64,000 nucleotides of DNA, taken from NCBI RefSeq assembly GCF_030064125.1, contig NZ_CP125957.1, positions 2,480,001 through 2,544,000 of the forward strand, in the 5' to 3' direction. Below the pieces are notes generated by a model, which worked only from the letters and a program-made list of their open reading frames with translations, did not search any database and was not told the origin of the DNA. This DNA is from Pseudomonas sp. G2-4 (GTDB lineage: Bacteria; Pseudomonadota; Gammaproteobacteria; Pseudomonadales; Pseudomonadaceae). This document shows, in pieces, positions 1,204 through 20,433 of the stretch. A program made the translations under genes and the position numbers. Numbering within the stretch: position 1 is the first letter of the stretch; every line of letters begins with the position of its first letter.

Positions 1204-1992
1204 ATGCTCGAAGAGATTGTCAGATACAAAGTCCAGGAAACGGCTCAACGCAAGCAGGCGCATGGTATCGATGCCCTGCTCAAGCGGATTCGTGACGCAC
1301 GAGCGCCCCGTCACTTTGCCGGTGCCTTGGCAGGCGAGGGAATCTCGCTCATTGCCGAAGCCAAGTACCGTTCGCCGTCCAAGGGCGTGCTGCGTGCTGA
1401 CTATGATCCACTCCAGTTGGCGATGGCGTACCAGGCCGGGGGCGCCAGTGCCCTGTCGGTTATCGCCGACAGTCGGTTCTTTGGTAATGCGCCCCATGTC
1501 GTTGGCATGCTGGCCAACCATCCTCAAATCACCTTGCCGGTGATGTACAAGGACTTCATCGTCGATGAGTACCAAGTCTACGAGGCGCGGGCACTGGGCG
1601 CCGACGCGGTGTTGATGATCGTCCGCTGCCTGCCGCCCGGCAGCCTTGCGAGGTTGCATGCCTTGGCGAACCAGCTGGGGCTGGATGTATTGGTGGAGAC
1701 TTTTAACGAGGCGGACATCGACCAGGCGCTATCGGTCGACGCGTCGATAGTAGGTATCAACAATCGCGACCTCGATACCTTCAAGGTCGACTTCGACCGC
1801 TCCGCCCAATTGTTCGAGTGTCTGCCTGCTTCGGTTATCGCCGTGGCGGAAAGCGGTGTTGCCGGTCATCAGGACATGCAGTTGGTAGAACGCATCGGCT
1901 TTGCCGCCGCGCTGGTGGGGGAACGTCTGCTAACAGCTGCTGACCCTTGCCTGGAGAGCCGTCGGCTGCTGGGCGCGGATGAGGCTGTATGA
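1204..1992 (+). CDS. trpC: Indole-3-glycerol-phosphate synthase
   Basis: This 262-residue TIM barrel converts CdRP to indole-3-glycerol phosphate. Catalytic and phosphate-binding motifs are present: the Lys and SPSKG of EAKYRSPSKG (near 55), the Lys of YKDFIVDEYQ (near 119), E in LVETFNEAD, GINNRDLDTF and VAESGV. It is monofunctional, with trpF encoded separately downstream. It is the first gene of the 14-gene operon, preceded by the lux-box-like palindrome, and overlaps the next gene by ATGA. Pseudomonads normally carry trpC with trpG and trpD as a housekeeping block, so this copy in an accessory operon is probably a second, specialised trpC. Confidence 0.93.
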   Translation: MLEEIVRYKVQETAQRKQAHGIDALLKRIRDARAPRHFAGALAGEGISLIAEAKYRSPSKGVLRADYDPLQLAMAYQAGGASALSVIADSRFFGNAPHVVGMLANHPQITLPVMYKDFIVDEYQVYEARALGADAVLMIVRCLPPGSLARLHALANQLGLDVLVETFNEADIDQALSVDASIVGINNRDLDTFKVDFDRSAQLFECLPASVIAVAESGVAGHQDMQLVERIGFAAALVGERLLTAADPCLESRRLLGADEAV

Positions 1993-3044
1993 CGATGCTG
2001 CGCTCAATCATCCTCGGCTTCGGTCACTGCGGGAGAAACCTGCATCTGGCCAGCCTGCGCTCATTGCATCGGCAGGGCTGCCTGCCCGATGTCGAGACCA
2101 CCATCACGGTCGTGGACCCTGAGCTGGGCGGTGGGTTGGTCGATGGCCTGGTGATGCAGCGCTGTCTACCCGAGGCGTCGGCACTGCAGGGCAGGGTAGG
2201 TGTCGTGCACATCTGTACGCCACCTGCCCTGCACTTGCGTCATGTGCACGAGGCGCTTATGGCCGGTTTCAGATACATCATCATTGAGAAACCCATGGTG
2301 ATGAACCTGGCCGAGGCCCAGGCACTGCGTTCCATGGAGCAACAATATGATGCGCAGATTCTGGTGGTTTCGGTGTGGGGCCACAGTCAGTTGATTCCAC
2401 GGCTCACCCGGTGGCTGGAAGCCAGTGAACAGCCGCTTCGCAGTGTGCACATCATCCATGACAAGCCTCGCTTTTCGCGCTCTTTCACCCGCCATGGCGA
2501 ACACCTGTTCGACATTGAAATGCCGCATCAAGTCAGCCTGGCGTTGCTGTTCGCCGGTGCTCCGGCGTCCGGGTTTCACGCGCACACCGAAGATCTGCGC
2601 GTCGAAGGCAAGCTGCGCCAGGCCATGAAGGCGGGCAGCATCGGCTGGCACGATGAGCAGGGCATCGAGGTGCTGCTCGAATCGGATCTTGCCAGTCCGA
2701 TCCGCCAACGCAGTGTGCGCCTGCAACTGGAAAGTGGCGAATGCTGCGAAGGCTTTTTCCCCGTAGGTGCCGACGACAGCTACGCACAGCTCAGATGCGA
2801 CACCGAGCACAGTGGCAGTAGCGCTCACCAGATCTTCGCTGACGAGCCCCTGACCACCTGTGTGGGCGAGTACTACCGCTATTTCCGGAACCACCTGCAG
2901 GGTTACGGCGGCGATATGCCTCGCAGCGGCACGGTGGCGTTCAACCAGCAGGTTGTCGAACTGCTGGAGCAGGCCCGCGGCGTTGCATCTGCCAGCGCAT
3001 TGGCGTCGATCAATATGCATATGGCCAAGGAGGCCGTTCGATGA
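1989..3044 (+). CDS. Gfo/Idh/MocA-family oxidoreductase (first copy)
   Basis: The 351-residue protein has an N-terminal Rossmann fold with the nucleotide loop GFGHCGRNLH, then IIIEKPMVMNLAEAQ carrying the family EKP motif (Lys catalytic), and a longer C-terminal alpha/beta domain. The family oxidises or reduces hydroxyl/keto groups of sugars, sugar nucleotides or inositols with NAD(P). Start and stop are both ATGA overlaps with trpC and the following aminotransferase, showing tight translational coupling. Pairing with a DegT enzyme suggests it makes the 3-keto (or inosose) substrate for amination. The exact substrate cannot be read from sequence. Confidence 0.85.
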   Translation: MTMLRSIILGFGHCGRNLHLASLRSLHRQGCLPDVETTITVVDPELGGGLVDGLVMQRCLPEASALQGRVGVVHICTPPALHLRHVHEALMAGFRYIIIEKPMVMNLAEAQALRSMEQQYDAQILVVSVWGHSQLIPRLTRWLEASEQPLRSVHIIHDKPRFSRSFTRHGEHLFDIEMPHQVSLALLFAGAPASGFHAHTEDLRVEGKLRQAMKAGSIGWHDEQGIEVLLESDLASPIRQRSVRLQLESGECCEGFFPVGADDSYAQLRCDTEHSGSSAHQIFADEPLTTCVGEYYRYFRNHLQGYGGDMPRSGTVAFNQQVVELLEQARGVASASALASINMHMAKEAVR

Positions 3045-4174
3045 GTGTTCCGTTTTTCCAGATCACCGAAGGATTCACCCGCGCCTTGCCGCTGCTGGAG
3101 GAGGGGCTGGCGGAGTTTCATCGACAGTCCGGCTGGGTCAATGACCAACAGGTGCGGGCTTTTGAGCAGGCTATCGCCACTTATACCGGCGCGCCCCATG
3201 CTATCGCTACCGGCAACGCTACCGATTCGCTGATCATCTGTCTGATGGCGTTGGGCATCGGCCCGGGTGATGAAGTCATCGTGCCTTGCTACAGCTTCTT
3301 CGCTTCGGTCTCCTGCATCCTGCAAGTGGGGGCGACGCCGGTGTTCGTCGATATCGAACCTGGCAGCTACGCAATTGACTGCTCCCTGATCGAAGCCTGC
3401 ATCACCCGGCGTACCCGAGCCATCATGCCAGTCCATCTGTTCAGGCAAATGGCCGAAATGGACGCGTTGATGGACATCGCCTGCCGACATGGGCTGAAGG
3501 TTGTCGAGGACAGCGCCGAAGGAATCGGAATGCGCTGGAACGACAGGCATGCCGGGCTGATCGGGGACCTTGGCGTACTGTCGTTCTTCCCCACCAAGAC
3601 CTTGGGTGCGCTCGGCGATGCCGGAATGGTCCTGACCCGCGATGCGGACCTGGCCAGGCGGGTGCGACAGATCCTCGACAATGGCCGTGATGCCAGCGGC
3701 CTGGCGCAGTGCCTGGGCTACAACAGCCGAATGGACGACCTGCAGGCCCTATGGCTGAGGGCGCGCTTGCCCGAGCTGGACCAGGAGATCGAACGACGTG
3801 CCGCGCTTCGCGATGCCTACGATTTGCACCTGGGGCCCTTGGGTGAATACCTGCAGGTGCCGGTCACGTTGCCTCGGACAGCGCGCCAGCGATGCGTCGA
3901 CTATGTCTACCTGATCGAGGCGCAGAACCGTGACGGCCTGGCCGAGCATCTCGCTGCGCGCGGGATTGGCGTCGAGGCCTACTACCCGCTGCCGCTGCAC
4001 CTGCAGCCGGTGTGCGCCGGGCCAACCCATGCCGAGGGTCGCTTTCCGGTCGCCGAGCGGGCCGCGACCCGGGCGTTGGGCCTTCCTCTCTATGCCGATC
4101 TGACTGCGTCAGATATTGCCAGCGTGTGCCAGGCGATCACCGAGTTCTATGCCGCTGCCGGAGCCCAGTCATGA
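3041..4174 (+). CDS. DegT/DnrJ/EryC1-family sugar aminotransferase (first copy)
   Basis: This 377-residue fold-type I PLP enzyme transfers an amino group, usually from Glu or Gln, to a keto-sugar or inosose. Visible are the substrate loop ATGNATDSLIICL, the DSAEGIG acidic motif and the PLP lysine in SFFPTKTLGALGDAG, followed by LGYNSRMDDLQA. It overlaps the preceding Gfo/Idh gene and the next DegT gene by ATGA. Together with the upstream dehydrogenase it resembles two-step oxidise-then-aminate modules such as WbpB/WbpE or NtdC/NtdA. The position and sugar are not determinable. Confidence 0.88.
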   Translation: MSVPFFQITEGFTRALPLLEEGLAEFHRQSGWVNDQQVRAFEQAIATYTGAPHAIATGNATDSLIICLMALGIGPGDEVIVPCYSFFASVSCILQVGATPVFVDIEPGSYAIDCSLIEACITRRTRAIMPVHLFRQMAEMDALMDIACRHGLKVVEDSAEGIGMRWNDRHAGLIGDLGVLSFFPTKTLGALGDAGMVLTRDADLARRVRQILDNGRDASGLAQCLGYNSRMDDLQALWLRARLPELDQEIERRAALRDAYDLHLGPLGEYLQVPVTLPRTARQRCVDYVYLIEAQNRDGLAEHLAARGIGVEAYYPLPLHLQPVCAGPTHAEGRFPVAERAATRALGLPLYADLTASDIASVCQAITEFYAAAGAQS

Positions 4175-5286
4175 TCAAGTACCAGGATTTCCAACGCCGT
4201 TATCCCAATGCGCAGACACAGATACTCGAGATTCTCGCTGCCCGGGTCCAACAAGGCGATTTCATTCTCAAGCAGCAGGTTCAGGATTTCGAGCAAGCCC
4301 TGGCGGCCAAGGTCGGTGCGCGCCACGCTGTCTGTGTAAGTTCTGCGACCTCCGGCCTGACCCTGTCGCTGATTGCATCCGGTATTGGGCCGGGAGATGA
4401 GGTCATAACACCTGCTTTTTGCTACGTATCGGCCGCCTCATCCATTGTGCAGGCGGGTGCTACACCGATATTCGTGGACGTTGCCCCCCACAGCGGCGTG
4501 CTCGAGGCCGAGGCCGTCGTCCGCGCCTTGACCCCCCGGACGCGGGCGGTATTGGTCGCCCACCTGTTCAGCGGCCTGGCTGACATTGATGCGTTGCGTG
4601 AGGCATTGCCCGAGGATGTCCTGATTCTCGAGGACAGTGCCACCGCATTCGGGGCGCGCCTGCGCGGCCGTCATGCCGGCACACTCGGTGACATTGGCGT
4701 GTACTCATTCTTTGCGGCCAAACCCTTGGGCGGTATCGGCGATGGTGGCGCGGTGATTACTGACGACGACCAGGTGGCGGGAGCCGTCCGGATGCTGCGC
4801 AATCATGGGCAGGACGGCCGTCGGCGTTTCTACCACCAGCGCTTGGGATACAACAGCCGCATGGATGAGACCAATGCCGCCTGGCTGCAGGCCCGGTTGC
4901 GGGAAAACGACTTGCACCTGGCCCGCAAGCAGGCCATTGCAAAGGCCTACGACGAAGCCATCGAAGCCAGCGACGGCGTGTTGCTCGGCCAGCATCGCGG
5001 TACCCCGGATTTCTCCCCTCACGCCTATGTCGTGCGCAGTGCAGAGCGTGAGCGGCTGGCCAGGCATCTCACCGCGCGCGGTATCCAGACCCGCGTGCAT
5101 TTTCCTGTGCCCTTGCCTGAGCAGCCGGCGTTTGTCCAATGGTCCGCAGGGCCGGCGCACTACCCCAATGCGCGTCTGCTGGGCAAGCAATGCCTGGCAT
5201 TGCCCCTGTGCTCCGGCATGAGCGACGGGCAGGTCTCGCGCGTCATCGAGGCGTTGAAGGAGTTCAGCCATGCCGAGGTCATTTAA
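4171..5286 (+). CDS. DegT/DnrJ/EryC1-family sugar aminotransferase (second copy)
   Basis: The 371-residue protein is a paralogue of the preceding gene with the same family landmarks: SSATSGLTLSL, EDSATAFGARLRGRHAGTLG, the PLP lysine in SFFAAKPLGGIGDGGAV and LGYNSRMDETNAAWL. A longer in-frame reading starts at 4012, but the ATG at 4171 overlapping the previous stop (ATGA) fits the family N-terminus and is preferred. Two clearly diverged DegT enzymes in tandem suggest two amination events or two different substrates rather than a recent duplication. The remaining assignment is inference. Confidence 0.88.
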   Translation: MIKYQDFQRRYPNAQTQILEILAARVQQGDFILKQQVQDFEQALAAKVGARHAVCVSSATSGLTLSLIASGIGPGDEVITPAFCYVSAASSIVQAGATPIFVDVAPHSGVLEAEAVVRALTPRTRAVLVAHLFSGLADIDALREALPEDVLILEDSATAFGARLRGRHAGTLGDIGVYSFFAAKPLGGIGDGGAVITDDDQVAGAVRMLRNHGQDGRRRFYHQRLGYNSRMDETNAAWLQARLRENDLHLARKQAIAKAYDEAIEASDGVLLGQHRGTPDFSPHAYVVRSAERERLARHLTARGIQTRVHFPVPLPEQPAFVQWSAGPAHYPNARLLGKQCLALPLCSGMSDGQVSRVIEALKEFSHAEVI

Positions 5287-6139
5287 GCTCACGGGAATCG
5301 CCGATGAAGGCTGCGCGTCCTTGGCCGAGCAGGTGGCGTGCCACGCTGAACTGGGCTGGCGACATCTCGAGCTGCGCAGTGTCGACAGCGTGCCGCTGGC
5401 CAACCTGTCGGAACGATCACGCGTATCGATGTGCGATTCGCTGCTCGCACAGCCCATGGACGTGGTGGTCCTGGCCTCACAGATCGGCAATTGGGGCAGC
5501 AGGATCGATACCGACTGGCAGACTGACCGGGCCGAATTGCAATGCCTGTTACAGATGGCCGGGCGCCTGGGGACGCGGATGATCCGAGTCATGTCCTACC
5601 CCAATTGTGGCTGGGAAGAGGCCCGCTGGCGGCATGCGGTCATTGAGCGATTCAAGCGTCTGGTGGAAGTGGCCGAAGACGCCGACGTCGTGCTGATACA
5701 CGAGAACTGTGCCGGATGGGCCGGCCAGGGCGCCGAGCAGACCCTGCAGTTGCTCGATGCCGTTGGCTCGGATCACTTGAAGCTGTTGTTCGATATCGGC
5801 AATGGCCTGAGTTATGGCTATGACGCCTTGTCGTTCCTGCGCCAAGTTCTCCCGCACGTGGCGCATGTGCATCTTAAGGATGGCTGCCGGGAAGTGGACG
5901 AAGTGCACTACACCTTCCCCGGGGAAGGCCAGGTGCGGGCCAAAGACTGCATCAATCTGCTGCTGGACAAGGGTTACAACGGCTGGTTTTCGATCGAGCC
6001 GCACCTGTGCCTGATCCCGCACCTCAGACAGTCGGCCACGGATCCGCATCGACAACGGCAGACCTATCAGGCCTATGCCGGGCATGCACGGGACCTGCTG
6101 CGATCCTGCCAGGAGGCGAAACATGCTGTTCACGGATAA
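5270..6139 (+). CDS. Sugar phosphate isomerase/epimerase-like TIM-barrel protein
   Basis: The protein has 289 residues. It matches the xylose-isomerase-like TIM-barrel (AP-endonuclease 2) superfamily: LIHENCAGW, LLFDIGNGLSYGYDALSFLRQV, HVHLKDG and a late FSIEPHL supply the Glu/Asp/His/Glu metal site typical of IolE, IolI and hydroxypyruvate isomerases. It overlaps the preceding gene by 17 bases and the M20 gene by 17. IolE/IolI relatives occur with Gfo/Idh enzymes in inositol pathways, which makes an inosose or keto-sugar substrate plausible. The reaction itself is unknown. Confidence 0.8.
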   Translation: MPRSFKLTGIADEGCASLAEQVACHAELGWRHLELRSVDSVPLANLSERSRVSMCDSLLAQPMDVVVLASQIGNWGSRIDTDWQTDRAELQCLLQMAGRLGTRMIRVMSYPNCGWEEARWRHAVIERFKRLVEVAEDADVVLIHENCAGWAGQGAEQTLQLLDAVGSDHLKLLFDIGNGLSYGYDALSFLRQVLPHVAHVHLKDGCREVDEVHYTFPGEGQVRAKDCINLLLDKGYNGWFSIEPHLCLIPHLRQSATDPHRQRQTYQAYAGHARDLLRSCQEAKHAVHG

Positions 6140-7397
6140 ATACGTAGACCGGCTTGAGCAACTGCTGTGCATCGACACGGTGACCCCGATGGAGACCGGC
6201 CAGCCCTCGTGCATCGCGCAGGCCAATACGCTCTTCGCCCAGTGGGCGCAGACAGTGGGCATGCGCGAGGTGTTCAACGGTCCTGGTGCCTTGCCCGATG
6301 AGGCGCGAGTGCCGGTGTCGGTGCAGCGCCGGATGAACGAGGCGCCGCAGTTCCTGGCTTGGCAGCCCCATAGCGTCCTGGAGATCGGTAACGGACCACG
6401 GGAACGTACGGTCATGTTCAATTTCCACATGGACACTGTGTCACCTCATCTGCCTGTGCAGGTAGTCGACGGCTGCGTACAGGGCCGCGGTGCGGTGGAC
6501 AATAAGGGGCCAGGCCTGGCGGTGCTGGCAGCGCTGGAGGCCTTGCAGATGCAAGAGCCGCAGGTGCTGGACGATATCCGCGTGCTGATCCAAGTGGTCG
6601 CCGGTGAAGAAGGGGGCGCCATGGGCGTCTATGGGACCCGCTACCTGTGCGAGCAAGGCTACCTGGGCTGCCTGAACATCTTCGTGGAGCCGACAGGCCC
6701 CGGTTACTTCGATGCCTCTACCACCTCGATGACGTACGAAGTACGGATGGACGGCAGGGATTCGACCGACGACTTTCCGCAACAGGGCGACAATGCTTCG
6801 CTGGTTCTGGGTTTCATCGCTCAGGCCATGGCTACCCAGTTGGCAGAGCCGTTGCACGCGCTGCAGGTGAAGATGACCCTGGCCGGTCTGCATACCGGCA
6901 TGCACCACAACCGGGTTTACGGTAACGGGCACTGTCTCTTCAATTTTGCCTATCGCAGCGCCGCTCAGGCGCGCGATGCCGAAGTGTTGGTCGAGCAAGC
7001 GTTCGACCAGGCGTTGCAGCAGTGCGGCTCACGTTTCGCCCAAAGCCCGCCATTCCTCATGACTGTCGAACGCCTGCGCACCACCTGCAGCGCTCGTTGG
7101 CTCAAGCACGGCTTGCCGGTCCTGAACAACCACCATGTGGCCTTGCAGCGCCTGTTGGGCGAGGCCGGCATCGTGCCGAACCCGGATGCCGAACAGGCCT
7201 TCACCTGCGATGCGATGTGGGCTCAGGGCGACGGCGCCTACAGCGTCGTCTGGGGGCCGGGCTCACTGGCCGACAACGGTGCGCACACCTGCCGTGAATA
7301 CGTTTCGATCAATGACCTGGACACCTTTGCAGTTGATGTAAAGCGGCTGCTACGCCGCTTTGCCGAGCCGATCGCAAACACTCTCAAGCAAGGATAA
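6123..7397 (+). CDS. M20-family metallopeptidase/deacylase
   Basis: This 424-residue cytosolic zinc hydrolase has NFHMDTVSPHLP (H-x-D ligand motif), QGRGAVDNKGPGLAV (metal-bridging Asp), VVAGEEGGAMG (general-base Glu pair) and a late NGAHTCREYV carrying the last ligand His. The middle LHTGMHHNRVYG lies in the lid domain. The start at 6123 is set by the AGGAGGCGAA ribosome site; an upstream in-frame start at 6075 is disfavoured. Family members remove N-acyl groups (ArgE, DapE) or cleave dipeptides, so a deacetylation or deprotection step in the cluster is a reasonable guess. Confidence 0.85.
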   Translation: MLFTDKYVDRLEQLLCIDTVTPMETGQPSCIAQANTLFAQWAQTVGMREVFNGPGALPDEARVPVSVQRRMNEAPQFLAWQPHSVLEIGNGPRERTVMFNFHMDTVSPHLPVQVVDGCVQGRGAVDNKGPGLAVLAALEALQMQEPQVLDDIRVLIQVVAGEEGGAMGVYGTRYLCEQGYLGCLNIFVEPTGPGYFDASTTSMTYEVRMDGRDSTDDFPQQGDNASLVLGFIAQAMATQLAEPLHALQVKMTLAGLHTGMHHNRVYGNGHCLFNFAYRSAAQARDAEVLVEQAFDQALQQCGSRFAQSPPFLMTVERLRTTCSARWLKHGLPVLNNHHVALQRLLGEAGIVPNPDAEQAFTCDAMWAQGDGAYSVVWGPGSLADNGAHTCREYVSINDLDTFAVDVKRLLRRFAEPIANTLKQG

Positions 7398-7403
7398 AAC
7401 GCT

Positions 7404-8489
7404 ATGGATTTCTTCTGCATTGCAGCCAACGAGCTGCATGGGTTCACTGTGGCTGCCCTTAAGGCAGCCGGGTTCACCGCATCCCAGGCCCAGAAGGCGG
7501 CGCCCGTGTTATTGCATGCCGATCTGAACGGCCACGATACCCATGGCATCGCCAACCTGGTCAATGTCTATATCGCCGGTGCCCGGAGCGGTGAAATCAA
7601 CCTGGCCGCCAGCGGCCAGTGGATCAGCGACCAAGGGGCCTGCGCCACCCTTGATGCCGACGGCGGGCTGGGACTGTTGGCGGGACAGCAGGCCATGGAA
7701 CGGGCCATCGACAAGGCCCGGGACTTTGGGATTGGCTGTGCGGTGGTGCGCAACAGTTCGCACTTCGGCGCGGCAGGTTTCTACGCCAGCATGGCCCTGG
7801 AACACGGCATGATCGGCATGGCCATGACCAACCTGGGTCGTGAGCCCGTCGCTCATCCGCTGGGCAGTATGGCGCCCTTGATGGGGACGAACCCGATCAG
7901 CCTGGCGGCTCCGGTGGCTGCTATGCCAGCGCCATTCCTGTTGGACATGAGCACGACGGTCTGCGCCAGCGGCAAGATCAAACAGGCCATTCGACGCCAG
8001 CAAACCATTCCCACCGGCTGGCTTCACGATGCCGAAGGCCGCGAGGTTAGCGATCCTGGAGCGTACCTGGACGGCAGCGCGATGTTGCCGATGCTCGGCG
8101 GGGCTTACGCGGAGCAGGGCGGACACAAGGGCTTGGGCCTTGGGATGATGGTCGAGATCCTGTGTGGGGTGCTCAGTGGTGCCCAGACCGGTGCGGACCT
8201 TGGCAACCCGGGGCGCAATAGCATCGGCCACTTCTTCCTGGCCCTGTCCCCCGAAGCCTTTGGTGCTGGCGAAGGTTTCCGCTCGTCGATGGACCGATTG
8301 CTCCAATACATCACGCAGGCGCCTGTGCATCCGGCGTTCGACCCGCTGAGCTATCCCGGCGCGCCTGACCTGAGGGTGCGTACAGAACGCCTGGCACAGG
8401 GCATTCCCGTCGATGCCGCACTGTTGGAGCAGCTCGACAGCATCGCGGGACAACTCGGTATTTCCCGAATCACGAGGACAGTGGCATGA
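7404..8489 (+). CDS. Ldh2/malate dehydrogenase-type NAD(P)-dependent oxidoreductase
   Basis: The 361-residue protein matches the Ldh2 family, which is unrelated to Rossmann dehydrogenases and includes malate, ureidoglycolate, 2,3-diketo-L-gulonate and piperideine-2-carboxylate reductases. NGHDTHGIANLVNVYI carries the catalytic His. NSSHFGAAGFYASMALEHGMIGMAMTN and GTNPISLAAP form the cofactor site, and the C-terminal region has GGHKGLGLGMMVEILCGVLSG. It follows the M20 gene by 6 bases and overlaps the next gene by ATGA. It probably reduces a 2-keto acid or imine carboxylate, fitting a pathway with an alpha-keto or uronic intermediate. Substrate is unknown. Confidence 0.87.
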   Translation: MDFFCIAANELHGFTVAALKAAGFTASQAQKAAPVLLHADLNGHDTHGIANLVNVYIAGARSGEINLAASGQWISDQGACATLDADGGLGLLAGQQAMERAIDKARDFGIGCAVVRNSSHFGAAGFYASMALEHGMIGMAMTNLGREPVAHPLGSMAPLMGTNPISLAAPVAAMPAPFLLDMSTTVCASGKIKQAIRRQQTIPTGWLHDAEGREVSDPGAYLDGSAMLPMLGGAYAEQGGHKGLGLGMMVEILCGVLSGAQTGADLGNPGRNSIGHFFLALSPEAFGAGEGFRSSMDRLLQYITQAPVHPAFDPLSYPGAPDLRVRTERLAQGIPVDAALLEQLDSIAGQLGISRITRTVA

Positions 8490-9403: not shown

Positions 9404-9809
9404 ACAGCCCCGTCAGCCGTCCAAGGCCAGGCTCGAGGCTAGGCTGGTGAAGCTGCTCTATCACACTCAGCAAGCACGTGGCATGACGTTGATCGAGCAC
9501 CGCTCCCGTTGTGTGCGGCGCGGCGAGTTGCACGAAGTGGTGACGACCGACCAGGCAGGGGCCGAGCCGGGCGACCGGATTGAGCGGGTCGGCTTCATCG
9601 GCTTCGTCGAAATCCAGCAGGCCGGGGTCATCGAGCGCGGTGATCGGGTGTTGCTGGGCGACACCTGCATTGGTCAGGTCATTGGCTTTGACGAATGCCA
9701 CTTTCCCAATCACTACAACATCCTGATAGCGGCGGACGACCTGCTGACCGGTGGCACCCTCCGGGATTGCGGCTTAGGCAGTTACCTGCACTTCGAGGAA
9801 GAGCAATGA
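9393..9809 (+). CDS. Unrecognised 138-residue protein
   Basis: I do not recognise this family. The start at 9393 overlaps the Gfo/Idh stop and the stop overlaps trpB by ATGA, so it is a genuine operon member. After about 25 polar residues it is rich in beta-type segments with turns: TTDQAGAEPGDRIERVGFIG, IERGDRVLLGD, IGQVIGFDECHFPNHYNI and LRDCGLGSYLHFEEE. A Cys/His group (DECHFPNHYN, near 107-116) could bind metal or act catalytically. There is no signal peptide or membrane segment. Its place directly before the fused trpB suggests a role tied to the pathway. Confidence 0.7.
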   Translation: MLAEQPRQPSKARLEARLVKLLYHTQQARGMTLIEHRSRCVRRGELHEVVTTDQAGAEPGDRIERVGFIGFVEIQQAGVIERGDRVLLGDTCIGQVIGFDECHFPNHYNILIAADDLLTGGTLRDCGLGSYLHFEEEQ

Positions 9810-11674: not shown

Positions 11675-12459
11675 ACCGTATCGACAGCTGTTTCGCCGAT
11701 CTCGCGCAAAGAGGCGAAAAGGCCCTGATGCCTTACCTGACGGTCGGCTATCCGGCACTGGACAGTCTGCCGGAGCTGGTACAGGCCGCACGTAATGCTG
11801 GTGCGGATGTCATCGAGCTGGGTGTGCCTTTCTCCGATCCGGTCGCCGATGGTCCGGTGATCCAACAGACCAGCCACGCAGCGATTGCCAATGGCATGAC
11901 CATGACGTTGGCATTGAAGCAGATCGCCGGACTTCCCCAGGACGACCAGGCGCCCGCGCTGGTGGTGATGACCTATACGAATCTTCTGCTTAACCATGGT
12001 TACGAGCGGTTCGCCGCGCAGGCGGCCGAGGCGGGCATCAGTGCAGTGATTGTCCCGGACATGCCGGTCGAGGCCAGTGGTGAGTTGCGTGCCGCCCTGG
12101 AGGCGCAAGGTTTGTATCAGATCTTTCTGATGACACCGAACCTTAGCGATGAGCGCCTGCGCACGATTGCCAGACACGCCAAGGGGTTCATCTATCTGGT
12201 GTCGGTGCTGGGCACGACTGGTGAGCGCGACCAATTGGCCGACATCGGTCCGTTCGTGGAGCGGGTACGGCGATTTACTGACTTGCCTTTGGCGGTTGGT
12301 TTCGGCATCGGCACCCCCGAGCAGGCCCGAGTCATGTGGCAGCTGGCGGAGGGCGTGATCATTGGCAGCGCTTTGGCACGCCGGCTGGCCGACCCAGTCG
12401 AAGCCGCTACGCAGGCCCACCACTATCTCGCTGGTTTCAAGGCCGGGGGCCGGCGATGA
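11671..12459 (+). CDS. trpA: Tryptophan synthase alpha subunit
   Basis: This 262-residue TIM barrel cleaves indole-3-glycerol phosphate to indole plus glyceraldehyde-3-phosphate and normally channels indole to TrpB. Catalytic Glu and Asp are both present in DVIELGVPFSDPVADGP (near 50 and 61). Also typical are MTYTNLLLNHGYERF, VPDMPVEASGEL, LVSVLGTTGER and VGFGIGTPEQAR. The gene overlaps both trpB and trpF by ATGA. The complete active site argues that the pair makes indole-derived amino acid rather than being vestigial. Confidence 0.94.
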   Translation: MNRIDSCFADLAQRGEKALMPYLTVGYPALDSLPELVQAARNAGADVIELGVPFSDPVADGPVIQQTSHAAIANGMTMTLALKQIAGLPQDDQAPALVVMTYTNLLLNHGYERFAAQAAEAGISAVIVPDMPVEASGELRAALEAQGLYQIFLMTPNLSDERLRTIARHAKGFIYLVSVLGTTGERDQLADIGPFVERVRRFTDLPLAVGFGIGTPEQARVMWQLAEGVIIGSALARRLADPVEAATQAHHYLAGFKAGGRR

Positions 12460-13082
12460 ATGGCTGGCAGCAGGGAACGATCAAGGTGTGCGGGGTACGG
12501 ACACCGGAAGATATCCAGGCTTGCCTGCAAGCCCGTGTCGATTTGATCGGCCTGGTACTGGTGCCTGGTTCAAAGCGCGAACTGTCGCTCAAACAGGCAA
12601 CGGTCTTGCGTGACCTGATCGGTGACCAGGCCAGGGTAGTGGGCGTGTTCATGAATCAGCCGTATAGCCAGGTCTACAAAACCACCCAGGCCCTGGACCT
12701 GGATCTGGTGCAGTTGCATGGCCAGGAGCAGGGGCGTTGTTGGGAGCAACTGGGACGGCCTTTGATCCGTCGTGTGATGCCGTCGGATTACCGCCGCGAT
12801 CGAAGGGCCTCGGCGCTGCCACTGGTCGATGCAGGGGCCGGCCACGGGATTGCGCATCCTTGGCCGGCCACGCGCTACCCGGAGGCGATGATCGCGGGCG
12901 GTTTGACGGTCAACAGTGTCGCAGCGTTGATCGAAGCACTCGAGCCCGCAGCCGTGGATGTGTCCTCGGGGGTGGAGTCGTCGCCAGGTTGCAAGTCGCC
13001 CCAGGCTATTGACGCGTTCTGTCGAAATGCCCGGATCGCCTTCGGGCAAGTGCGACGCGCGCAACGCAGCAGCAATCAGTAA
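12456..13082 (+). CDS. trpF: Phosphoribosylanthranilate isomerase
   Basis: The 208-residue protein isomerises phosphoribosyl-anthranilate to CdRP. The catalytic Cys is in IKVCGVRTPEDIQ and the catalytic Asp in PLVDAGAGHGIAHPW (the usual GGTGK loop is changed to GAGHG). The phosphate site AGGLTVNSVAALIEALEP and AVDVSSGVESSPGCKSP are conserved. The start at 12456 overlaps the trpA stop (ATGA); the longer reading from 12336 lies inside trpA. The altered loop after the catalytic Asp is the only unusual point. Confidence 0.92.
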   Translation: MNGWQQGTIKVCGVRTPEDIQACLQARVDLIGLVLVPGSKRELSLKQATVLRDLIGDQARVVGVFMNQPYSQVYKTTQALDLDLVQLHGQEQGRCWEQLGRPLIRRVMPSDYRRDRRASALPLVDAGAGHGIAHPWPATRYPEAMIAGGLTVNSVAALIEALEPAAVDVSSGVESSPGCKSPQAIDAFCRNARIAFGQVRRAQRSSNQ

Positions 13083-13146
13083 TGACGGCAGCCGCCGTGG
13101 CCTGCCAACAGGCGGGATCAGCCCAGCTAACAGGTGAGGGAAAACA

Positions 13147-14178
13147 ATGCCGCAGAATGTGCGTGGAGTGGTTGCACGGTACAGCCAGGGGGAGCCGGTC
13201 GAGGCGCATCAGTTGCAAAGCGCCTTTCGCGCATTGATGCAGGGACAGCTGCCGGACTCGTTGATCGCTGCGCTGCTGGTGGCTTTGCAAGTGAAGGGCT
13301 TGGAGGCCCAGGCGATCGAGTGTGTCGCCCGCGTGGTACGTGAATTTCTGATTCCGGTCCGGCATTCGGTGGCGGGGCCGCTGGTGGACCTGTGCGGAAC
13401 AGGAGGGGACGCGCGGGCCACGTTCAACGTGTCGACCACCGCCAGCTTTGTGGTGGCTGCGGCGGGTGTGCGGGTGGCCAAGCATGGCAACCGCAGTGTC
13501 AGCTCGACCTGTGGCAGCGCCGATGTACTGGAAGCGCTGGGCCTGGATTTGCAATTGACGCCCGCACAGATCGCTACGTGCCTGGAACGAGTGGGAATTG
13601 GATTCATGTTCTCGCCAGCCCATCGACCGGCTCTGCCGGGCTTGACGCGGGTCCGCAGTGAACTGGCCATCCGCACGATTTTCAATGTCATCGGCCCGCT
13701 GACCAACCCCGCCGCGGCGAGCAGGCAGTTGCTGGGTGTGTTCAGCGCCGAGCTGGTGCCGATCATGGCGCAGGTACTCAGGGCACTGGGCAGCGAGCGG
13801 GCGCTGGTGGTCCACGGCGAGGATGGCTTGGACGAGATTTCCCTATCCGGTAGCACGCTGGTCGCTGAGCTCTGGGATGGCGACATACGCCAGTACCACC
13901 TCCACCCCAGCGATTTCGGAATGAAGGTGTGTGATCTGGCAACCCTGCAGGTCAGCAGCATCGACCAGGCCCGGGCGTTATGCCTGGAAGTGCTCGCGGG
14001 CCGGAAGGGTGCTCCACGCGACATTGTCCTGCTCAACAGTGCCGCGGCGCTCTACCTGGGCGACAGGGTCGAGAGTATCGCCCAGGGGCTGGAGCTGGCG
14101 ACCGGCATTCTGGACAGCGGAAAGGCCATGCAAACCTATGAATCGTTGTTGTCATTTACCCGTGGATTGCGAAATTGA
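13147..14178 (+). CDS. trpD: Anthranilate phosphoribosyltransferase
   Basis: This 343-residue enzyme joins anthranilate and PRPP. The glycine loop DLCGTGGDARATFNVST (PRPP site), KHGNRSVSSTCGSADVLEALG, FSPAHRPALPGLTRVRSELAIRTIFNVIGPLTNPA and HGEDGLDEIS are all present. It is preceded by a 64-base gap, the largest inside the operon, with a small GCCTG-CCAA-CAGGC hairpin, and ends 29 bases before the sugar-nucleotide dehydrogenase. With trpE and trpG on the opposite strand, the locus encodes every step from chorismate to tryptophan. Confidence 0.94.
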   Translation: MPQNVRGVVARYSQGEPVEAHQLQSAFRALMQGQLPDSLIAALLVALQVKGLEAQAIECVARVVREFLIPVRHSVAGPLVDLCGTGGDARATFNVSTTASFVVAAAGVRVAKHGNRSVSSTCGSADVLEALGLDLQLTPAQIATCLERVGIGFMFSPAHRPALPGLTRVRSELAIRTIFNVIGPLTNPAAASRQLLGVFSAELVPIMAQVLRALGSERALVVHGEDGLDEISLSGSTLVAELWDGDIRQYHLHPSDFGMKVCDLATLQVSSIDQARALCLEVLAGRKGAPRDIVLLNSAAALYLGDRVESIAQGLELATGILDSGKAMQTYESLLSFTRGLRN

Positions 14179-14207
14179 AGGCACAGCCGGGTTTCAAGGA
14201 GCGAAGG

Positions 14208-15500
14208 ATGGAACAGATTTTTGGGACTGTCGCGGTGGTGGGGCTGGGCTATGTCGGGCTTCCTCTGGCGGTTGAGTTCGGCAAGCGCTTGCCGACCATA
14301 GGCTTCGATATCTGCCAGCACAGTATCGATCAATTACGCGATGCCATAGATCCATCCGGGGAGCTTGGCGAGGAGCAGATGCAGCAGGCGCACTTGCTCA
14401 CCTATACGAGCGATCCGGCGGCGCTGCGCTGCGCTGACATTATCATCGTCGCGGTCCCCACACCTGTGGATGCGGCGAATCAACCTGATTTGTCACCCTT
14501 GATACGAGCCAGTGAAGCGGTGGGGCGGAACATGAAACCCGGGGCATTGGTCATCTACGAGTCGACCGTTTACCCGGGCGCGACCGAGGAACGGTGCATT
14601 CCCGCCTTGCAGGAGGCTTCGGGGCTGGTGTGGAAAGAGGGCTTCACTGTCGGCTACTCGCCTGAGCGAATCAATCCCGGCGATCGTACCCACACGCTTT
14701 GCGATATTGTCAAAGTCGTGTCCGGCGACAGTCCGCAGAGCTTGCAGACCGTGGCCGCGTTGTACGAGCTGATTGTCCGGCCGGGGGTGCATCGTGCGCC
14801 TTCGATCAAAGTGGCCGAGGCGGCCAAGGTCATCGAGAATACCCAGCGCGACCTGAACATCGCCCTGATGAATGAGTTATCGCTGATCTTCTCGGAACTG
14901 AAGATCGACACTTGCCAGGTGCTGGAAGCGGCGAACACCAAGTGGAATTTCCTTGATTTCAAGCCAGGGCTGGTAGGCGGTCACTGCATTGGCGTCGATC
15001 CCTATTACCTCACCTACAAGGCCGAGTCCCATGGCTACCATCCCCAGGTGATCCTTGCCGGGCGACGGATCAACGATGGCATGGGCAAGTGGATCGTCGA
15101 GAAAACCATCAAGCTGCTGATCGCCGCCAACCGTGTGGTGAAGGGCTCGACGATCAATGTGCTGGGGATCACATTCAAGGAAAACTGCGCGGATGTACGC
15201 AATTCGAAGGTTCACGACATCATCGTCGAGTTGCGAGCCTATGGCGTCAACGTCCATGTGCATGACCCGCTGGCCGACGCAGCGACGGTCATGCGTGAGT
15301 ACGACTGCGCATTGAGCAGTTGGGAACAGCTGCCCGCAGGCGATGCGATGATCGTGGCTGTGCCGCATGAGGCCTATCGGCGCACCTCATTGCAGCAAAT
15401 GCGCACCAAGTTATTGCCCGGGGCCTGTGTGATTGATGTCAAGGCTGTCCTGGATCGGGAGTCCTACGAGGCCGAGGGTTATCATTTCTGGCGTCTGTAG
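14208..15500 (+). CDS. NDP-sugar 6-dehydrogenase (WbpA/TviB-like)
   Basis: The 430-residue NAD-dependent dehydrogenase oxidises the C6 hydroxyl of a UDP-hexose or UDP-N-acetylhexosamine to a carboxylate. Motifs: Rossmann loop VVGLGYVGLPLAVEFGK, VPTPVDAANQPDLSPL, YESTVYPGATEE, GYSPERINPGD, catalytic Cys in VGGHCIGVDPYYLTYKAESHGYHP, and a C-terminal NDP-binding domain with GITFKENCADVRNSK. The last two resemble TviB/WbpA (UDP-HexNAc) more than UDP-glucose dehydrogenases. The ATG at 14208 has an AAGGAGCGAAGG ribosome site; an in-frame TTG at 14175 is less likely. It is the last gene of the operon and overlaps luxR2 convergently by 19 bases. Confidence 0.88.
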   Translation: MEQIFGTVAVVGLGYVGLPLAVEFGKRLPTIGFDICQHSIDQLRDAIDPSGELGEEQMQQAHLLTYTSDPAALRCADIIIVAVPTPVDAANQPDLSPLIRASEAVGRNMKPGALVIYESTVYPGATEERCIPALQEASGLVWKEGFTVGYSPERINPGDRTHTLCDIVKVVSGDSPQSLQTVAALYELIVRPGVHRAPSIKVAEAAKVIENTQRDLNIALMNELSLIFSELKIDTCQVLEAANTKWNFLDFKPGLVGGHCIGVDPYYLTYKAESHGYHPQVILAGRRINDGMGKWIVEKTIKLLIAANRVVKGSTINVLGITFKENCADVRNSKVHDIIVELRAYGVNVHVHDPLADAATVMREYDCALSSWEQLPAGDAMIVAVPHEAYRRTSLQQMRTKLLPGACVIDVKAVLDRESYEAEGYHFWRL

Positions 15501-16285
15501 ACCGCTGGTTCAACCGTCGGCGTGACGAGCCCGCAGGCCACCGCAGCACTGACGGCCTGCTGGCGACTCACCGAACCGAGTTTGCGTCGGGCATTGAGCA
15601 GGTGGAAGTCGATGGTGCGTTCGGAACAGGTCAGGATGTGGCTGATCTCCCAGGTGGTCTTGCCGGCGCTGGCCCAATACAGGCAGTCCAACTCTTTGGG
15701 CGTGAGGTTCTGGCGGGGCTGGGCTACTGGACTCTGCAACTGATGGCGCATCCCGGCGAGCAGGTAGGGGATGAGCATGAATAATTGATAGACGGCGGGG
15801 TTGGAAAACCCTTCTCGCTCGGTGATCTGGGTGTCATCGAAAGCCACACTTAGTGTTCCCCTGAGCATCTCGTAGCGCAGCGGGATGCTCAGGCCGCTGC
15901 GCAGGCCGTGTTGCTCGCGTTGCTGCCAGAAGTGCCGGGAGCGTCCACGGGCACGCCTGCGCTCGCTGTCCCAGAAAAAAGGCAGCAGTTCGCGTCGACA
16001 GTGTCTGAGTATCGGGTCGATCTCGATCAGCCCGTCACCGCGATAGTGTTCCAGCCAACGTTTGGGAAAGGTGGTGATGAGGCCAGCGAGAGGGTCGGTG
16101 TCCCTTGGTGCTGCCGGTCCCAGGCTGATGAGGTAGCTGCCGAAGCCGAGTTGGCGCAGCACTTTGTTGACCAGGCGCTCCCAATCGCAACGGTTGGCAT
16201 CTTTGGCCAGACTCATGAAGGCGGTCAGCGGTGCGGTACGCCCGGCCTGGGTCCGGCCGCAGACGGGGGAGTTGAGTTTGTCCAT
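15482..16285 (-). CDS. LuxR-type quorum-sensing regulator 2
   Basis: The protein has up to 267 residues; a later in-frame ATG at 16216 would give 244. The autoinducer-binding domain keeps W..HY, IEIDPI, the W of PFFWDS and REQHGLRSG. The HTH reads LTPKELDCLYWASAGKTTWEIS followed by TIDFHLLNARRKLGS. It is clearly diverged from luxR1, so the two may recognise different operators or signals. It follows trpG on the same strand behind a terminator-like hairpin, so it probably has its own promoter in 16286-16340. Its 3' end overlaps the sugar dehydrogenase gene. Confidence 0.9.
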   Translation of the reverse strand: MDKLNSPVCGRTQAGRTAPLTAFMSLAKDANRCDWERLVNKVLRQLGFGSYLISLGPAAPRDTDPLAGLITTFPKRWLEHYRGDGLIEIDPILRHCRRELLPFFWDSERRRARGRSRHFWQQREQHGLRSGLSIPLRYEMLRGTLSVAFDDTQITEREGFSNPAVYQLFMLIPYLLAGMRHQLQSPVAQPRQNLTPKELDCLYWASAGKTTWEISHILTCSERTIDFHLLNARRKLGSVSRQQAVSAAVACGLVTPTVEPAVYRRQK

Positions 16286-16339
16286 AAACGAGTCGCTCTT
16301 GTTATAGCGGGAATGAAACAGCCGGAGCACGGAAAAGAA

Positions 16340-16353
16340 GGGGCGTGCGCCCC
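16340..16353 (-). terminator. Intrinsic terminator after trpG
   Basis: On the minus strand GGGGCG-CA-CGCCCC is followed directly by TTCTTTTCC. The stem is 6 GC-rich pairs with a very short loop, then a T-rich tail, just 11 bases after the trpG stop. It would separate trpEG transcription from luxR2. Confidence 0.55.
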
Positions 16354-16363
16354 TCCTGGTGGA

Positions 16364-16948
16364 TCACTGGTGCACGTAACACTTGATGAAACTGCGGAAC
16401 AGGTCCAAGCCGTTTTCGGTCAGGATGCTCTCAGGGTGAAACTGCACCCCCTCCACTGGCAGGTGGCGATGCCGTACACCCATCACATAGCCGTCATCGG
16501 TGGATCGCGAGGTGACTTCCAGGCAGTCGGGTAACTGCTGGTCGCTGACCATCAACGAGTGGTAGCGGGTGGCTTGTATGGCACGTGCTTGCGTATGGTC
16601 GTAGACGCCCTTGCCATCATTCTCGATTTTGCTCACCTTGCCGTGCATCACGTGCGGGGCGCGGCAAACCTGGGCGCCGAAGGCCAGGCCGATGGCCTGA
16701 TGACCCAGGCAAACGCCCAGCAGCGGCAAACGCCCCTGAAAGTGCTTGATGACTTCGATATAGCCAACGTCGGCCGGATGCCCAGGCCCAGGGCCCAGCA
16801 CGCAGAAGTCCGGTGAAAAATCCTCGATGCGTTGCAGGAGGTCTGGCACGTCGTGACGCTCGACGCGGGTTTCCAGCCCCAGTTGTTCCAGGTACTGGCT
16901 GATGATAAAGACGAAGCTGTCGTAGGCATCGATCAGGAATACTTTCAC
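16364..16948 (-). CDS. trpG: Anthranilate synthase glutamine amidotransferase subunit
   Basis: This 194-residue class I amidotransferase supplies ammonia to TrpE. Catalytic Cys is in LLGVCLGHQAIG, His/Glu in VQFHPES, and the oxyanion motif is GPGPGHPAD. The start is a GTG at 16948 that overlaps the trpE stop (GTGA), giving the canonical MKVFLIDAYDSF N-terminus. An extended reading to 17101 would run into trpE and is rejected. It is a free-standing subunit, as in PhnB, and translationally coupled to trpE. Confidence 0.93.
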   Translation of the reverse strand: MKVFLIDAYDSFVFIISQYLEQLGLETRVERHDVPDLLQRIEDFSPDFCVLGPGPGHPADVGYIEVIKHFQGRLPLLGVCLGHQAIGLAFGAQVCRAPHVMHGKVSKIENDGKGVYDHTQARAIQATRYHSLMVSDQQLPDCLEVTSRSTDDGYVMGVRHRHLPVEGVQFHPESILTENGLDLFRSFIKCYVHQ

Positions 16949-18414
16949 AGTGCGATCTCCTTGCCGGTTACTGCCCGGTAGACAGAACCCATTTTGTACA
17001 ACGTCTCTTTCCACTCCATCTCGGGAACCGAGTCGGCAACCACCCCGGCGGATGCCCGCAAGTGGTAGGTACCCTCGTCGAAGACGGTCGAGCGAATGCA
17101 CAGGGCGGTATTGACGCTGCCATCAAAACCTACGAGGCCAAGGGCTCCGGCGTAGATGCCGCGGCGGTTGCTCTCCATTCCCTCGATCAACTCCATCGCC
17201 CTGACCTTGGGCGCGCCGGACATGGTCCCGGCGGGGAACGAGGCTTTGATCACGTCGTAGGCGTCCAGGCCTGGGCGCAGCAGACCGCGAACGTTCGACA
17301 CCATGTGATAGAGGTGCGAGTACTCCTCCACCAGCATGAACTCGTCGACTTCCAGTGAGCCGGCCTGGCAGACGCGACCGATATCATTGCGACACAGATC
17401 GATGAGCATCAGGTGCTCGGCGCGTTCCTTCTCCGAGCGGGTCAGCTCCAGCACCAGTTGGGTCGGATCGACGCCAGGCTTCTTGCCGACAGTACCGGCG
17501 ATCGGACGCATCTCAATCAAATCGTCCTTGATCCTGACGAACAGCTCCGGACTGGCACCGATCAGGTCGATACCGCCCACATGGGCCAGGTACATGTAAG
17601 GAGAGGGGTTGCGCAGGCGCAGGTTCTGGTACACATCGAACGGCGCAACCTGCGAGCGAATGCGGATCTCATGGCCGAGTTGGATCTGGTAGACGTCGCC
17701 GGCGCGGATGTGCTCCATCGCGACTTCGACACGTTCGCAAAATTGCTCCGGGGTGACCGTGCGGATTTCCTCGAATGTCTCTGGATACGGTGGCAGATCC
17801 ACTGCCTCGCACGCCGGGGTTGCGCTCAGGAAGGGGTAATCCTCCACTGTACGGGGCGCCCACAGAGGGTGGTTGTTGATCAGGGTTTCGACAATGCCGT
17901 TGCTGTGGAAATAAACCAGTGTCTGATAGACCGACAGGGCGATGAGCGGGTAGCTGTAGGTCTGTTCGGCGAGATCGGGAAGGCGCTCGATCAGGCGAAC
18001 GCAGTCGTAGGAGAAATAGCCGAAGAACGCCAGGCTGGAAGGGGCATTGGGTGCAGGCTGGAACGTAGCCTGGATGGCCCGGAGCAGGTTCCACGCTGAC
18101 TCGCTGTCCGGTAGATGGATCTTGTGCTCGGGATCGACCTGCACCCCCCCTTGTTGCAGGCTGGCGGACAAGTGTTCACACAGCGCAGGACAGCCGCGCA
18201 GTTGTGCCTGGCCCTCATCGATACACACTTCGAAAAGGGGCTCGAGCCCGATGATCGTCGCCCGGCGATCGCGGCTTGGACCGGACAGTGATTCAAGAAT
18301 GAAGACAGACTCGCGACCCAGTTGCTCCAGTGCATTTGCATATATGCCAAGTGCATCTGTAGATCGACGTTCTTCGCGGCGAAGAACATTGACGTCAATT
18401 AAATGTTTATTCAC
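16945..18414 (-). CDS. trpE: Anthranilate synthase component I
   Basis: The protein has 489 residues from the GTG at 18414. It converts chorismate plus ammonia to anthranilate. The chorismate-binding domain contains QIQLGHEIRI, IGASPELFVR, PIAGTVGKKPG, DLCRNDIGRVCQ, EYSHLYHMVSNV, FPAGTMSGAPKVRAMELI and RASAGVVADSVPE. The N-terminal ILESLSG resembles the LLES motif of Trp feedback sites, so feedback sensitivity may be kept. An in-frame GTG at 18492 is possible, but a strong dyad (18477-18496) spans it and looks like promoter DNA, so 18414 is preferred. It is divergent from the PaaK-like operon. Confidence 0.92.
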   Translation of the reverse strand: MNKHLIDVNVLRREERRSTDALGIYANALEQLGRESVFILESLSGPSRDRRATIIGLEPLFEVCIDEGQAQLRGCPALCEHLSASLQQGGVQVDPEHKIHLPDSESAWNLLRAIQATFQPAPNAPSSLAFFGYFSYDCVRLIERLPDLAEQTYSYPLIALSVYQTLVYFHSNGIVETLINNHPLWAPRTVEDYPFLSATPACEAVDLPPYPETFEEIRTVTPEQFCERVEVAMEHIRAGDVYQIQLGHEIRIRSQVAPFDVYQNLRLRNPSPYMYLAHVGGIDLIGASPELFVRIKDDLIEMRPIAGTVGKKPGVDPTQLVLELTRSEKERAEHLMLIDLCRNDIGRVCQAGSLEVDEFMLVEEYSHLYHMVSNVRGLLRPGLDAYDVIKASFPAGTMSGAPKVRAMELIEGMESNRRGIYAGALGLVGFDGSVNTALCIRSTVFDEGTYHLRASAGVVADSVPEMEWKETLYKMGSVYRAVTGKEIAL

Positions 18415-18476
18415 GGTTATACCATTTTCAAGGTGCAACGATTCAGGCACTCCATTAAGAGAGCGCCACGGGAATA

Positions 18477-20425: not shown

Positions 20426-20433
20426 GGTCACCG

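Follow-up and report, generated by a model that had tools for sequence, protein, structure and literature searches.

The trio formed by SgcD, SgcG and an acyl-AMP ligase constitutes the benzoxazolinate cassette in the relevant passages of Shi et al. 2022 (PMC10098953), and occurs, together with a glutaminase subunit, in the sgc cluster of C-1027 and the pbz cluster of benzobactin. For the plasmids of Pseudomonas syringae pv. actinidiae, McCann et al. 2013 describe, in the passage concerned (PMC3723570), clusters of 'aromatic carbon metabolism', also found in Pae, in which two anthranilate genes stand beside a pathway for a secreted compound that begins with the gene of a phenylacetate-CoA ligase, for which anthranilate is the suggested substrate; benzoxazolinate is not mentioned in that passage. 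Among the proteins with a B3/4 domain, the free-standing CtdA is reported to deacylate canavanyl-tRNA and to protect cells from canavanine (PMC10018355). AetD and SktA are described as haem-oxygenase-like (HDO) enzymes acting on tryptophan side chains (PMC13108848). Relatives of these systems meet in a locus of Pseudomonas sp. G2-4, in the midst of a second set of trp-type genes. The window, i.e., the whole stretch of 64,000 nucleotides that was analysed (C1:2480001-2544000 of a complete one-contig genome of 6.65 Mb), contains all seven trp-type genes (trpC, B, A, F, D, G and E) within 17 kb, as confirmed by Pfam and NCBIfam scans, and the gene set runs on to position 24681, past position 18414 where a previous sequence-only reading had let it end. 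The most likely explanation, with a probability of about 0.62, is a quorum-sensing-linked supercluster that joins two cassettes with separate histories, of which cassette B would make a benzoxazolinate-type unit and cassette A a tryptophan-type amino acid.

The sequence-only reading had considered the seven genes as a complete second tryptophan pathway, to be checked by a search for another trp set in the same genome. Separate housekeeping copies of all seven families do occur outside the cluster (trpE at 701967, trpG/D/C at ~705-708 kb with trpG adjoining trpD, trpBA at 47-49 kb, and trpF at 2191512), and the cluster is accordingly a non-housekeeping set. Identities between the cluster and housekeeping copies amount to 33% for trpF, 38% for trpE, 40% for both trpC and trpA, 44% for trpD and 54% for TrpB, and to 55% over a 130-residue part for trpG. 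Because of these values of only 33-55%, and of a separate clade for the fused TrpB (100/100 support), a recent duplication of the genome's own trp genes is ruled out. The NCBIfam equivalog cut-offs are passed by trpA, TrpB (Table 1), trpD (cut-off 199 bits) and, for one model, trpC (262 vs 260 bits), and missed by trpF (125 vs 215 bits) and trpE (375 vs 518 bits).

The whole gene set is also present in another Pseudomonas genome, designated G340, and P. zanjanensis SWRI12 carries it up to the end of the sequence compared (equivalent of 20516), with 97% DNA identity. A broad search of genome_contigs yielded one locus. The cluster genes are under purifying selection, with dN/dS values of 0.02-0.21 across 26/26 segments compared to G340 (dS 0.17-0.46), and of 0.02-0.41 over the 20 segments compared to P. 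zanjanensis, for which dS is small.

Cassette B and its relatives on plasmids

The distinction of two cassettes rather than one follows from the occurrence of the trpE/G cassette without trpDCFBA on Pseudomonas plasmids. The two plasmid neighbourhoods read, from P. syringae pv. actinidiae ICMP 18884 (L055 8415-17059) and P. coronafaciens B19001 (L056 8416-17058), both show the succession LuxR, TrpG, TrpE, PaaK ligase, GNAT-type protein, iron-containing redox enzyme, flavodoxin, EamA and hydrolase, which is the gene order of the window at 15482-24088, with 57-87% identity per gene. Neither trpDCFBA nor LuxI is annotated in these two neighbourhoods, so that the seven trp-type genes do not make up a single heritable unit. 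Both plasmid cassettes carry relatives of the full trio (SgcD-type, SgcG-like and PaaK-type), and the P. syringae-group cassette plasmids are conjugative. Searches against plasmids gave 52 records for the PaaK-type gene, 23 of them at 80-90% identity, and 23 Pseudomonas records each, counted separately, for TrpE2 (the cluster TrpE), the HDO and the flavoprotein; the gene order was read in 2.

The locus of McCann et al. is presumably the ICMP 18884 cassette, the genes of which are 57-87% identical to those of the window and arranged in the same order, with the difference that they reside on a conjugative plasmid and lack a LuxI gene in the stretch read. The reference given there for the Pae clusters we take to be Green et al. 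The word 'anthranilate' is absent from the relevant passages of both Patel et al. 2014 (PMC3909224) and Green et al. 2010 (PMC2856684).

The relationship to the benzoxazolinate cassette is apparent for each member of the trio. The plasmid search with TrpE2 returned 79 records and, among the 40 listed, the best ones outside Pseudomonas are Streptomyces sgcD genes (43.6-44.1%) and S. zaomyceticus genes (43.8%); TrpE2 shares 44% identity with SgcD vs 35-38% with the TrpE of its own genome. In a tree built from 15 sequences, a branch with 100/99 support joins TrpE2 to the SgcD-type enzymes and separates it from 5/5 TrpE sequences and from the third paralogue of the genome, and 8 residue positions are fixed differently between eight benzoxazolinate-linked and five TrpE sequences, five of the eight being close Pseudomonas copies. 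The flavoprotein shows 36% identity with SgcG across 148 aa (E 9e-31), and the window ligase is 43% identical over 445 aa to the PaaK-family ligase located between sgcG and sgcD in the S. globisporus record (order sgcG, PaaK-family ligase, sgcD), XsbC itself being outside the comparison. Two further Streptomyces plasmids combine a flavodoxin, an AMP-binding enzyme, and TrpE-type and TrpG-type proteins.

By its sequence, cassette B thus matches the three-gene cassette of Shi et al. (PMC10098953), with a predicted product of the benzoxazolinate type. It differs from the sgc and pbz cassettes by its additional GNAT, HDO, EamA and hydrolase genes and by its linkage to LuxR (and LuxI), and no non-ribosomal peptide synthetase or enediyne genes occur among the window genes scanned. 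The word 'Syringae' does not appear in the main text of Shi et al. (PMC10098953), and the link to the P. syringae cassette is not claimed here as unpublished. Chorismate would be converted into 2-amino-2-deoxyisochorismate (ADIC) by the SgcD-type enzyme together with the glutaminase, and ADIC into 3-O-enolpyruvoylanthranilate (OPA) by the SgcG-like flavoprotein, the cyclisation being predicted for the PaaK-type acyl-AMP ligase. The resulting unit would then be tailored by the GNAT, HDO and hydrolase proteins and exported by EamA. Of the 3His/3carboxylate ligand set expected in an HDO, a haem-oxygenase-like dimetal oxidase, the part mapped, H-x3-D-x2-H, occurs in the translated sequence. The anthranilate-derived product that had been listed among the candidates of the sequence-only reading comes near the mark for this half of the region.

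A plasmid of Streptomyces NBC_00376 carries another cluster (L058 7861-17715) that associates a TrpE homologue of the SgcD side with trpG, trpD, a tryptophan halogenase and sbnA/sbnB.

Cassette A, a mobile module and a fused tryptophan synthase

Cassette A, to which LuxR1 is also assigned, comprises at 1204-15500 trpC, a block of seven genes (Gfo/Idh, DegT, DegT, TIM barrel, M20, Ldh_2 and Gfo/Idh, in this order), DUF6917, B3/4::TrpB, trpA, trpF, trpD and the gene of a UDP-sugar dehydrogenase. The interleaving of trp genes with sugar-type aminotransferases and dehydrogenases had already suggested a dedicated precursor supply for a natural product, and a dedicated small-molecule metabolism is indeed the sensible reading. 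From its family matches, IolG- and IolE-like (far below the cut-off) and WbpE-like for the aminotransferases, the chemistry of the block points to a sugar or cyclitol type. Cassette A would build a tryptophan-type amino acid from an anthranilate and a polyol- or aminosugar-like unit.

The seven-gene block occurs in the same order on plasmids of two Rhizobium strains, sp. T136 and sp. T1470, with ectB on one side and a methyltransferase gene on the other, and, in a five-gene form that lacks both DegT genes, on a plasmid of Streptomyces sp. NBC_00490. Because it recurs in these settings at 30-51% identity per gene, the block is a mobile one, the output of which probably enters more than one kind of product. 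No trp genes were found beside the module in the Rhizobium and Streptomyces plasmid stretches read: the Rhizobium loci differ from the window by their partners, which are ectB, an EgtD-like methyltransferase, a major facilitator superfamily (MFS) gene and an ATP-grasp gene, and the Streptomyces locus by a fusion of DUF6917 with a DXS-like enzyme. We know of no product assigned to any of these loci. On the conjugative Rhizobium plasmids (L017 15353-27594 and L018 9353-21594) the module lies in a compact orphan cluster, and the Streptomyces copy, with its DUF6917 fusion, covers L015 14499-22322. Plasmid searches with M20 (E up to 1e-5) and GfoB (E up to 1e-25) gave 4 records each, 0 of them from Pseudomonas, and M20 was found in 1/398 genomes of the phylum, that of the window. 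In none of the DNA read did the complete cassette A, trp genes included, stand apart from cassette B.

The DUF6917 protein is present in 2/398 genomes of the genus (the present one and G340) and in 1/369 genomes of the class (the present one). A search yielded 32 matches, of which the 31 aligned (P0022 was left out) all keep R39, H47-E48, D100, H103 and P105-N109; these conserved His, Glu, Asp and Asn residues suggest an enzyme or a metal site. Its AlphaFold model (pLDDT 94) gave no convincing match in the PDB.

An unusual component of cassette A had been overlooked in the sequence-only reading, which recognized trpB: the TrpB forms the C-terminal part of the protein encoded at 9806-11674 and is fused with a B3/4 domain. 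The B3/4 domain occupies residues ~65-195 (PF03483, 54 bits for a cut-off of 29) and TrpB residues ~230-613. A search of 5.8 billion proteins, with scoring confined to the 7990 candidates that had most words in common, uncovered five protein clusters of this design; the fusion is present in 2/398 Pseudomonas genomes, including that of the window, and the fusion domain in 1/398 genomes of the phylum, again that of the window. The window fusion and the five others form one clade (100/100), apart from the genome's own TrpB.

TrpB2 has kept its catalytic residues, and an altered serine site was rejected on this ground; the roles assigned to these residues are those that we presume for them. By the criterion applied, differences were found at six columns, three of which are fixed in 6/6 fusions, including a Pro in the SAGLD loop where 23/24 other sequences have Ala; any bearing of these differences on the serine site is suggestive only.

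The solved relatives of the B3/4 domain are PheRS-beta (3pco, E 1.9e-8) and CtdA (9f7e, E 0.0014), with which it shares domain homology. Since CtdA guards against canavanine (PMC10018355), a link of the fused domain to a non-standard amino acid is a natural guess, and the domain would probably handle or clear aminoacyl-tRNA charged with the amino acid of cassette A.

The window also contains, at 37546-38238, a free B3/4 gene separate from the fusion, which is by sequence an orthologue of the CtdA canavanyl-tRNA deacylase (9f7e, E 2.4e-135) and is adjoined by an XRE/cupin regulator at 36779-37381. The editing residues of E. coli PheRS are, in position and role, taken by us to be H265 and E334; the free protein has Gly at the first of these columns and keeps Glu at the second.

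Regulation and weighing of the alternatives

The two LuxR regulators and the following LuxI gene noticed in the sequence-only reading are indeed present (Table 1). The LuxI gene at the end of cassette B, together with a lux-box-like dyad in front of trpC2, suggests a putative control by N-acyl-homoserine lactone (AHL). The 18-bp dyad pattern has one exact match in the window; with <=2 mismatches it has 2, without any excess over chance (mean 1.2, with 33/100 shuffles reaching 2). A plasmid search with LuxI yielded 31 records, with Pseudomonas absent from the ten organism names listed and six further organisms left unnamed.

Table 1. Positions in the window of the genes and of the dyad assigned to the two cassettes and to their regulation.
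Feature	Position	Strand	Basis
LuxR-type regulator 1 (autoinducer-binding + GerE)	224..1054	-	PF03472 E 3e-21, PF00196 E 1.5e-18; conserved in P. zanjanensis and G340
lux-box-like 20-bp dyad	1065..1084		between LuxR1 and trpC2; identical in three genomes (window, G340, P. zanjanensis)
trpC2, indole-3-glycerol phosphate synthase	1204..1992	+	PF00218 E 5e-70; 40% to housekeeping TrpC
GfoA, divergent Gfo/Idh/MocA oxidoreductase (module)	1989..3044	+	PF01408; 30-32% to first module gene of Rhizobium and Streptomyces
DegT aminotransferase a (module)	3041..4174	+	PF01041 E 2e-101; 51% to Rhizobium module gene
DegT aminotransferase b (module)	4171..5286	+	PF01041; 47-48% to Rhizobium module gene
AP_endonuc_2 TIM-barrel isomerase/epimerase-like (module)	5270..6139	+	PF01261 E 3e-28; 40% Rhizobium, 44% Streptomyces
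M20 metallo-deacylase (module)	6123..7397	+	PF01546 E 1e-17; 47% Rhizobium, 41% Streptomyces
Ldh_2 family dehydrogenase (module)	7404..8489	+	PF02615 E 1e-107; 45% Rhizobium, 35% Streptomyces
GfoB, Gfo/Idh/MocA dehydrogenase (module)	8486..9403	+	PF01408 E 7e-27; 43-44% in Rhizobium and Streptomyces
DUF6917 protein	9393..9809	+	PF21891 E 8e-49
B3/4::TrpB fusion, 622 aa	9806..11674	+	PF03483 E 1.5e-14 and PF00291 E 8e-47; TIGR00263 566 bits, cut-off 392
trpA2	11671..12459	+	PF00290 E 2e-80; TIGR00262 237 bits, cut-off 102
trpF2	12456..13082	+	PF00697 E 7e-35 (scored on longer open reading frame, ORF); 33% to housekeeping TrpF
trpD2, acceptor-site His -> Arg (R160)	13147..14178	+	TIGR01245 385 bits
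UDP-HexNAc 6-dehydrogenase-like (TviB-type)	14208..15500	+	TIGR03026 369 bits, above cut-off 190; NF011729 455 bits, below cut-off 592
LuxR-type regulator 2 (cassette B)	15482..16285	-	PF03472/PF00196; 63-64% to plasmid-cassette LuxR of the P. syringae group
TrpG-type amidotransferase	16364..16948	-	TIGR00566 209 bits; 84-85% to plasmid cassette
SgcD-type chorismate enzyme, TrpE family	16945..18414	-	GTG start, ORF open to 18492; 80-83% to plasmid cassette
PaaK-family ligase (candidate acyl-AMP ligase)	19073..20425	+	86% to plasmid cassette
GNAT-type acyltransferase	20434..20979	+	PF13444 21.3 bits, just under cut-off 22.4; 76-77% to plasmid cassette
HDO family enzyme	20981..21664	+	PF14518 E 1.7e-19; 87% to plasmid cassette; ORF open from 20948
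SgcG-like flavoprotein (candidate ADIC dehydrogenase)	21668..22279	+	PF03358; 79-80% to plasmid cassette
EamA exporter	22285..23193	+	PF00892 E 5e-38; 75% to plasmid cassette
alpha/beta hydrolase, start uncertain	23102..24088	+	PF00561; 57-58% to plasmid cassette
LuxI-type AHL synthase	24076..24681	+	PF00765 E 1e-23; 98% to G340

The region is not set apart by its composition, the GC content varying between 0.57 and 0.64 in 2-kb steps, and no match to Rfam, either a riboswitch or another known RNA, was found in the window at 1-40000. Immediately to the left of LuxR1, G340 contains ~7.7 kb of extra DNA (L020 ~2019-9781), between the window-equivalent positions -471 and -431, which may delimit the cluster on its left side. 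An empty-site test performed with a downstream gene matched 2/10 relatives, namely the own genome and a distant one. Directly downstream of LuxI, genes of sugar-acid catabolism occupy 25592-36598 (PfkB kinase, MR/MLE enolase, mannitol dehydrogenase, UxuA and altronate dehydratase type), and this stretch is common to the window and G340 up to ~29787, the end of the G340 DNA compared.

Several observations weigh against the two-cassette explanation. In the tree, a strict clade of benzoxazolinate-linked sequences is lacking (2 label changes, with a single clade in 16% of the bootstrap trees): the NBC_00376 homologue, which has no benzoxazolinate partners beside it in the stretch read, falls on the SgcD side among them and shares 2/8 of the distinctive positions. 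The tree programme also issued a long-branch warning and, because of this warning and of the position of NBC_00376, the placement of TrpE2 should be read as SgcD-type rather than as a proof of ADIC chemistry. By analogy with the PbzF of P. chlororaphis, which is not among the sequences compared and which Shi et al. call anthranilate synthase component I, yet able to replace the ADIC synthase PhzE, in the relevant passage (PMC10098953), TrpE2 could still be a maker of anthranilate. The flavoprotein possesses three Cys vs four in SgcG, which leaves its Fe-S state unsure, whereas the SgcG/XsbA-type dehydrogenase of a benzoxazolinate cassette is FMN-dependent and contains Fe-S. With respect to the B3/4 domain, which differs from CtdA and PheRS-beta by its fusion to TrpB, Gly occupies, in the fusion family, both of the positions aligned with the editing His and Glu of E. 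coli PheRS, so that a tRNA-editing activity is not supported by these residues; the AlphaFold model of the domain is poor (pLDDT 55) and was left unused. Finally, cassettes A and B may work as one pathway after all, since they are adjacent in 3/3 genomes read (in P. zanjanensis up to 20516).

Among the alternatives, it is unlikely, though it has to be seriously considered, that two unrelated cassettes would have become chance neighbours at one chromosomal site, each working independently without a common product or regulation. Elsewhere, cassette B exists without the seven-gene module and the module without cassette B, and each half has its own LuxR, as expected from such an assembly, but the adjacency has been kept in three genomes, at a dS of 0.17-0.46 to G340, the sole LuxI found in the set lies at the end of cassette B, and the dyad located before cassette A is identical in the three genomes.

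A self-protection of the producer appears rather improbable. The product would be a tryptophan antimetabolite that blocks the housekeeping pathway, with cassette A as a resistant bypass and the B3/4 domain clearing the mischarged tRNA. The fusion of this domain to the very enzyme making the amino acid, and the precedent of CtdA, a free B3/4 protein directed against a toxic amino acid (PMC10018355), are in agreement with this role, whereas the absence of the PheRS editing residues, the sugar/amino-type module, which is left unexplained, and the grouping with SgcD of TrpE2, a member of the family that is the usual feedback target, are not. The genome also possesses one trpS and no second tryptophanyl-tRNA synthetase (TrpRS), which rules out an indolmycin-type self-resistance via a second TrpRS.

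It is a long shot, inferred as chemistry from a few sequences, that both cassettes contribute to a single route towards a 7-oxygenated tryptophan, in which a 3-oxygenated anthranilate (OPA or a derivative) supplied by cassette B would be processed by TrpD2, F2, C2, A2 and B3/4::TrpB; the oxygen would be found at C7 of tryptophan because the C3 atom of anthranilate ends up as C7 in the indole ring. The residue R160 occurs in 3/3 cluster TrpD copies, compared to His in 6/6 other TrpD sequences, and could hold the extra carboxylate of OPA. Position 160 is, by the numbering of the Sulfolobus enzyme, what we take to be the anthranilate-site His. TrpD2 differs at 12 positions from five mutually agreeing TrpD proteins, and positions 156, 160 and 163 are grouped, with Ala, His and Met replaced by Ser, Arg and Leu in 3/3 cluster copies. 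That TrpD2 would attach the phosphoribose to a 3-oxygenated anthranilate is equally improbable, and there is little likelihood as well that the fused B3/4 domain would handle a tRNA problem arising from the analogue; the occurrence of cassette B alone in P. syringae, and its ligase, favour benzoxazolinate as an end point. If true, a substituted tryptophan would be built de novo from a substituted anthranilate via a duplicated trp pathway, and not by later modification.

A single dedicated tryptophan supply, running from trpE to trpB and feeding one indole-derived natural product, is very doubtful, as the seven enzyme families under purifying selection within 17 kb and the presence of an HDO, a family that includes the tryptophan-directed AetD and SktA (PMC13108848), are outweighed by trpE/G standing without the remaining trp genes in the two plasmid neighbourhoods read, by the grouping of TrpE2 with SgcD and not with TrpE, and by the HDO being part of a plasmid cassette devoid of trp-type genes beyond E and G in the stretches read.

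The reading as two cassettes of separate history provides a testable identity, of the benzoxazolinate type, for an orphan cassette that plant-pathogenic Pseudomonas, among them the agent of kiwifruit canker, carry on conjugative plasmids. It also reveals a very rare protein design, which associates a tryptophan synthase with a domain of the tRNA-proofreading type, and defines a mobile seven-gene module common to Pseudomonas and Rhizobium and reduced in Streptomyces. Moreover, it serves as a warning that the recognition of a 'complete pathway' by gene name can merge two systems.

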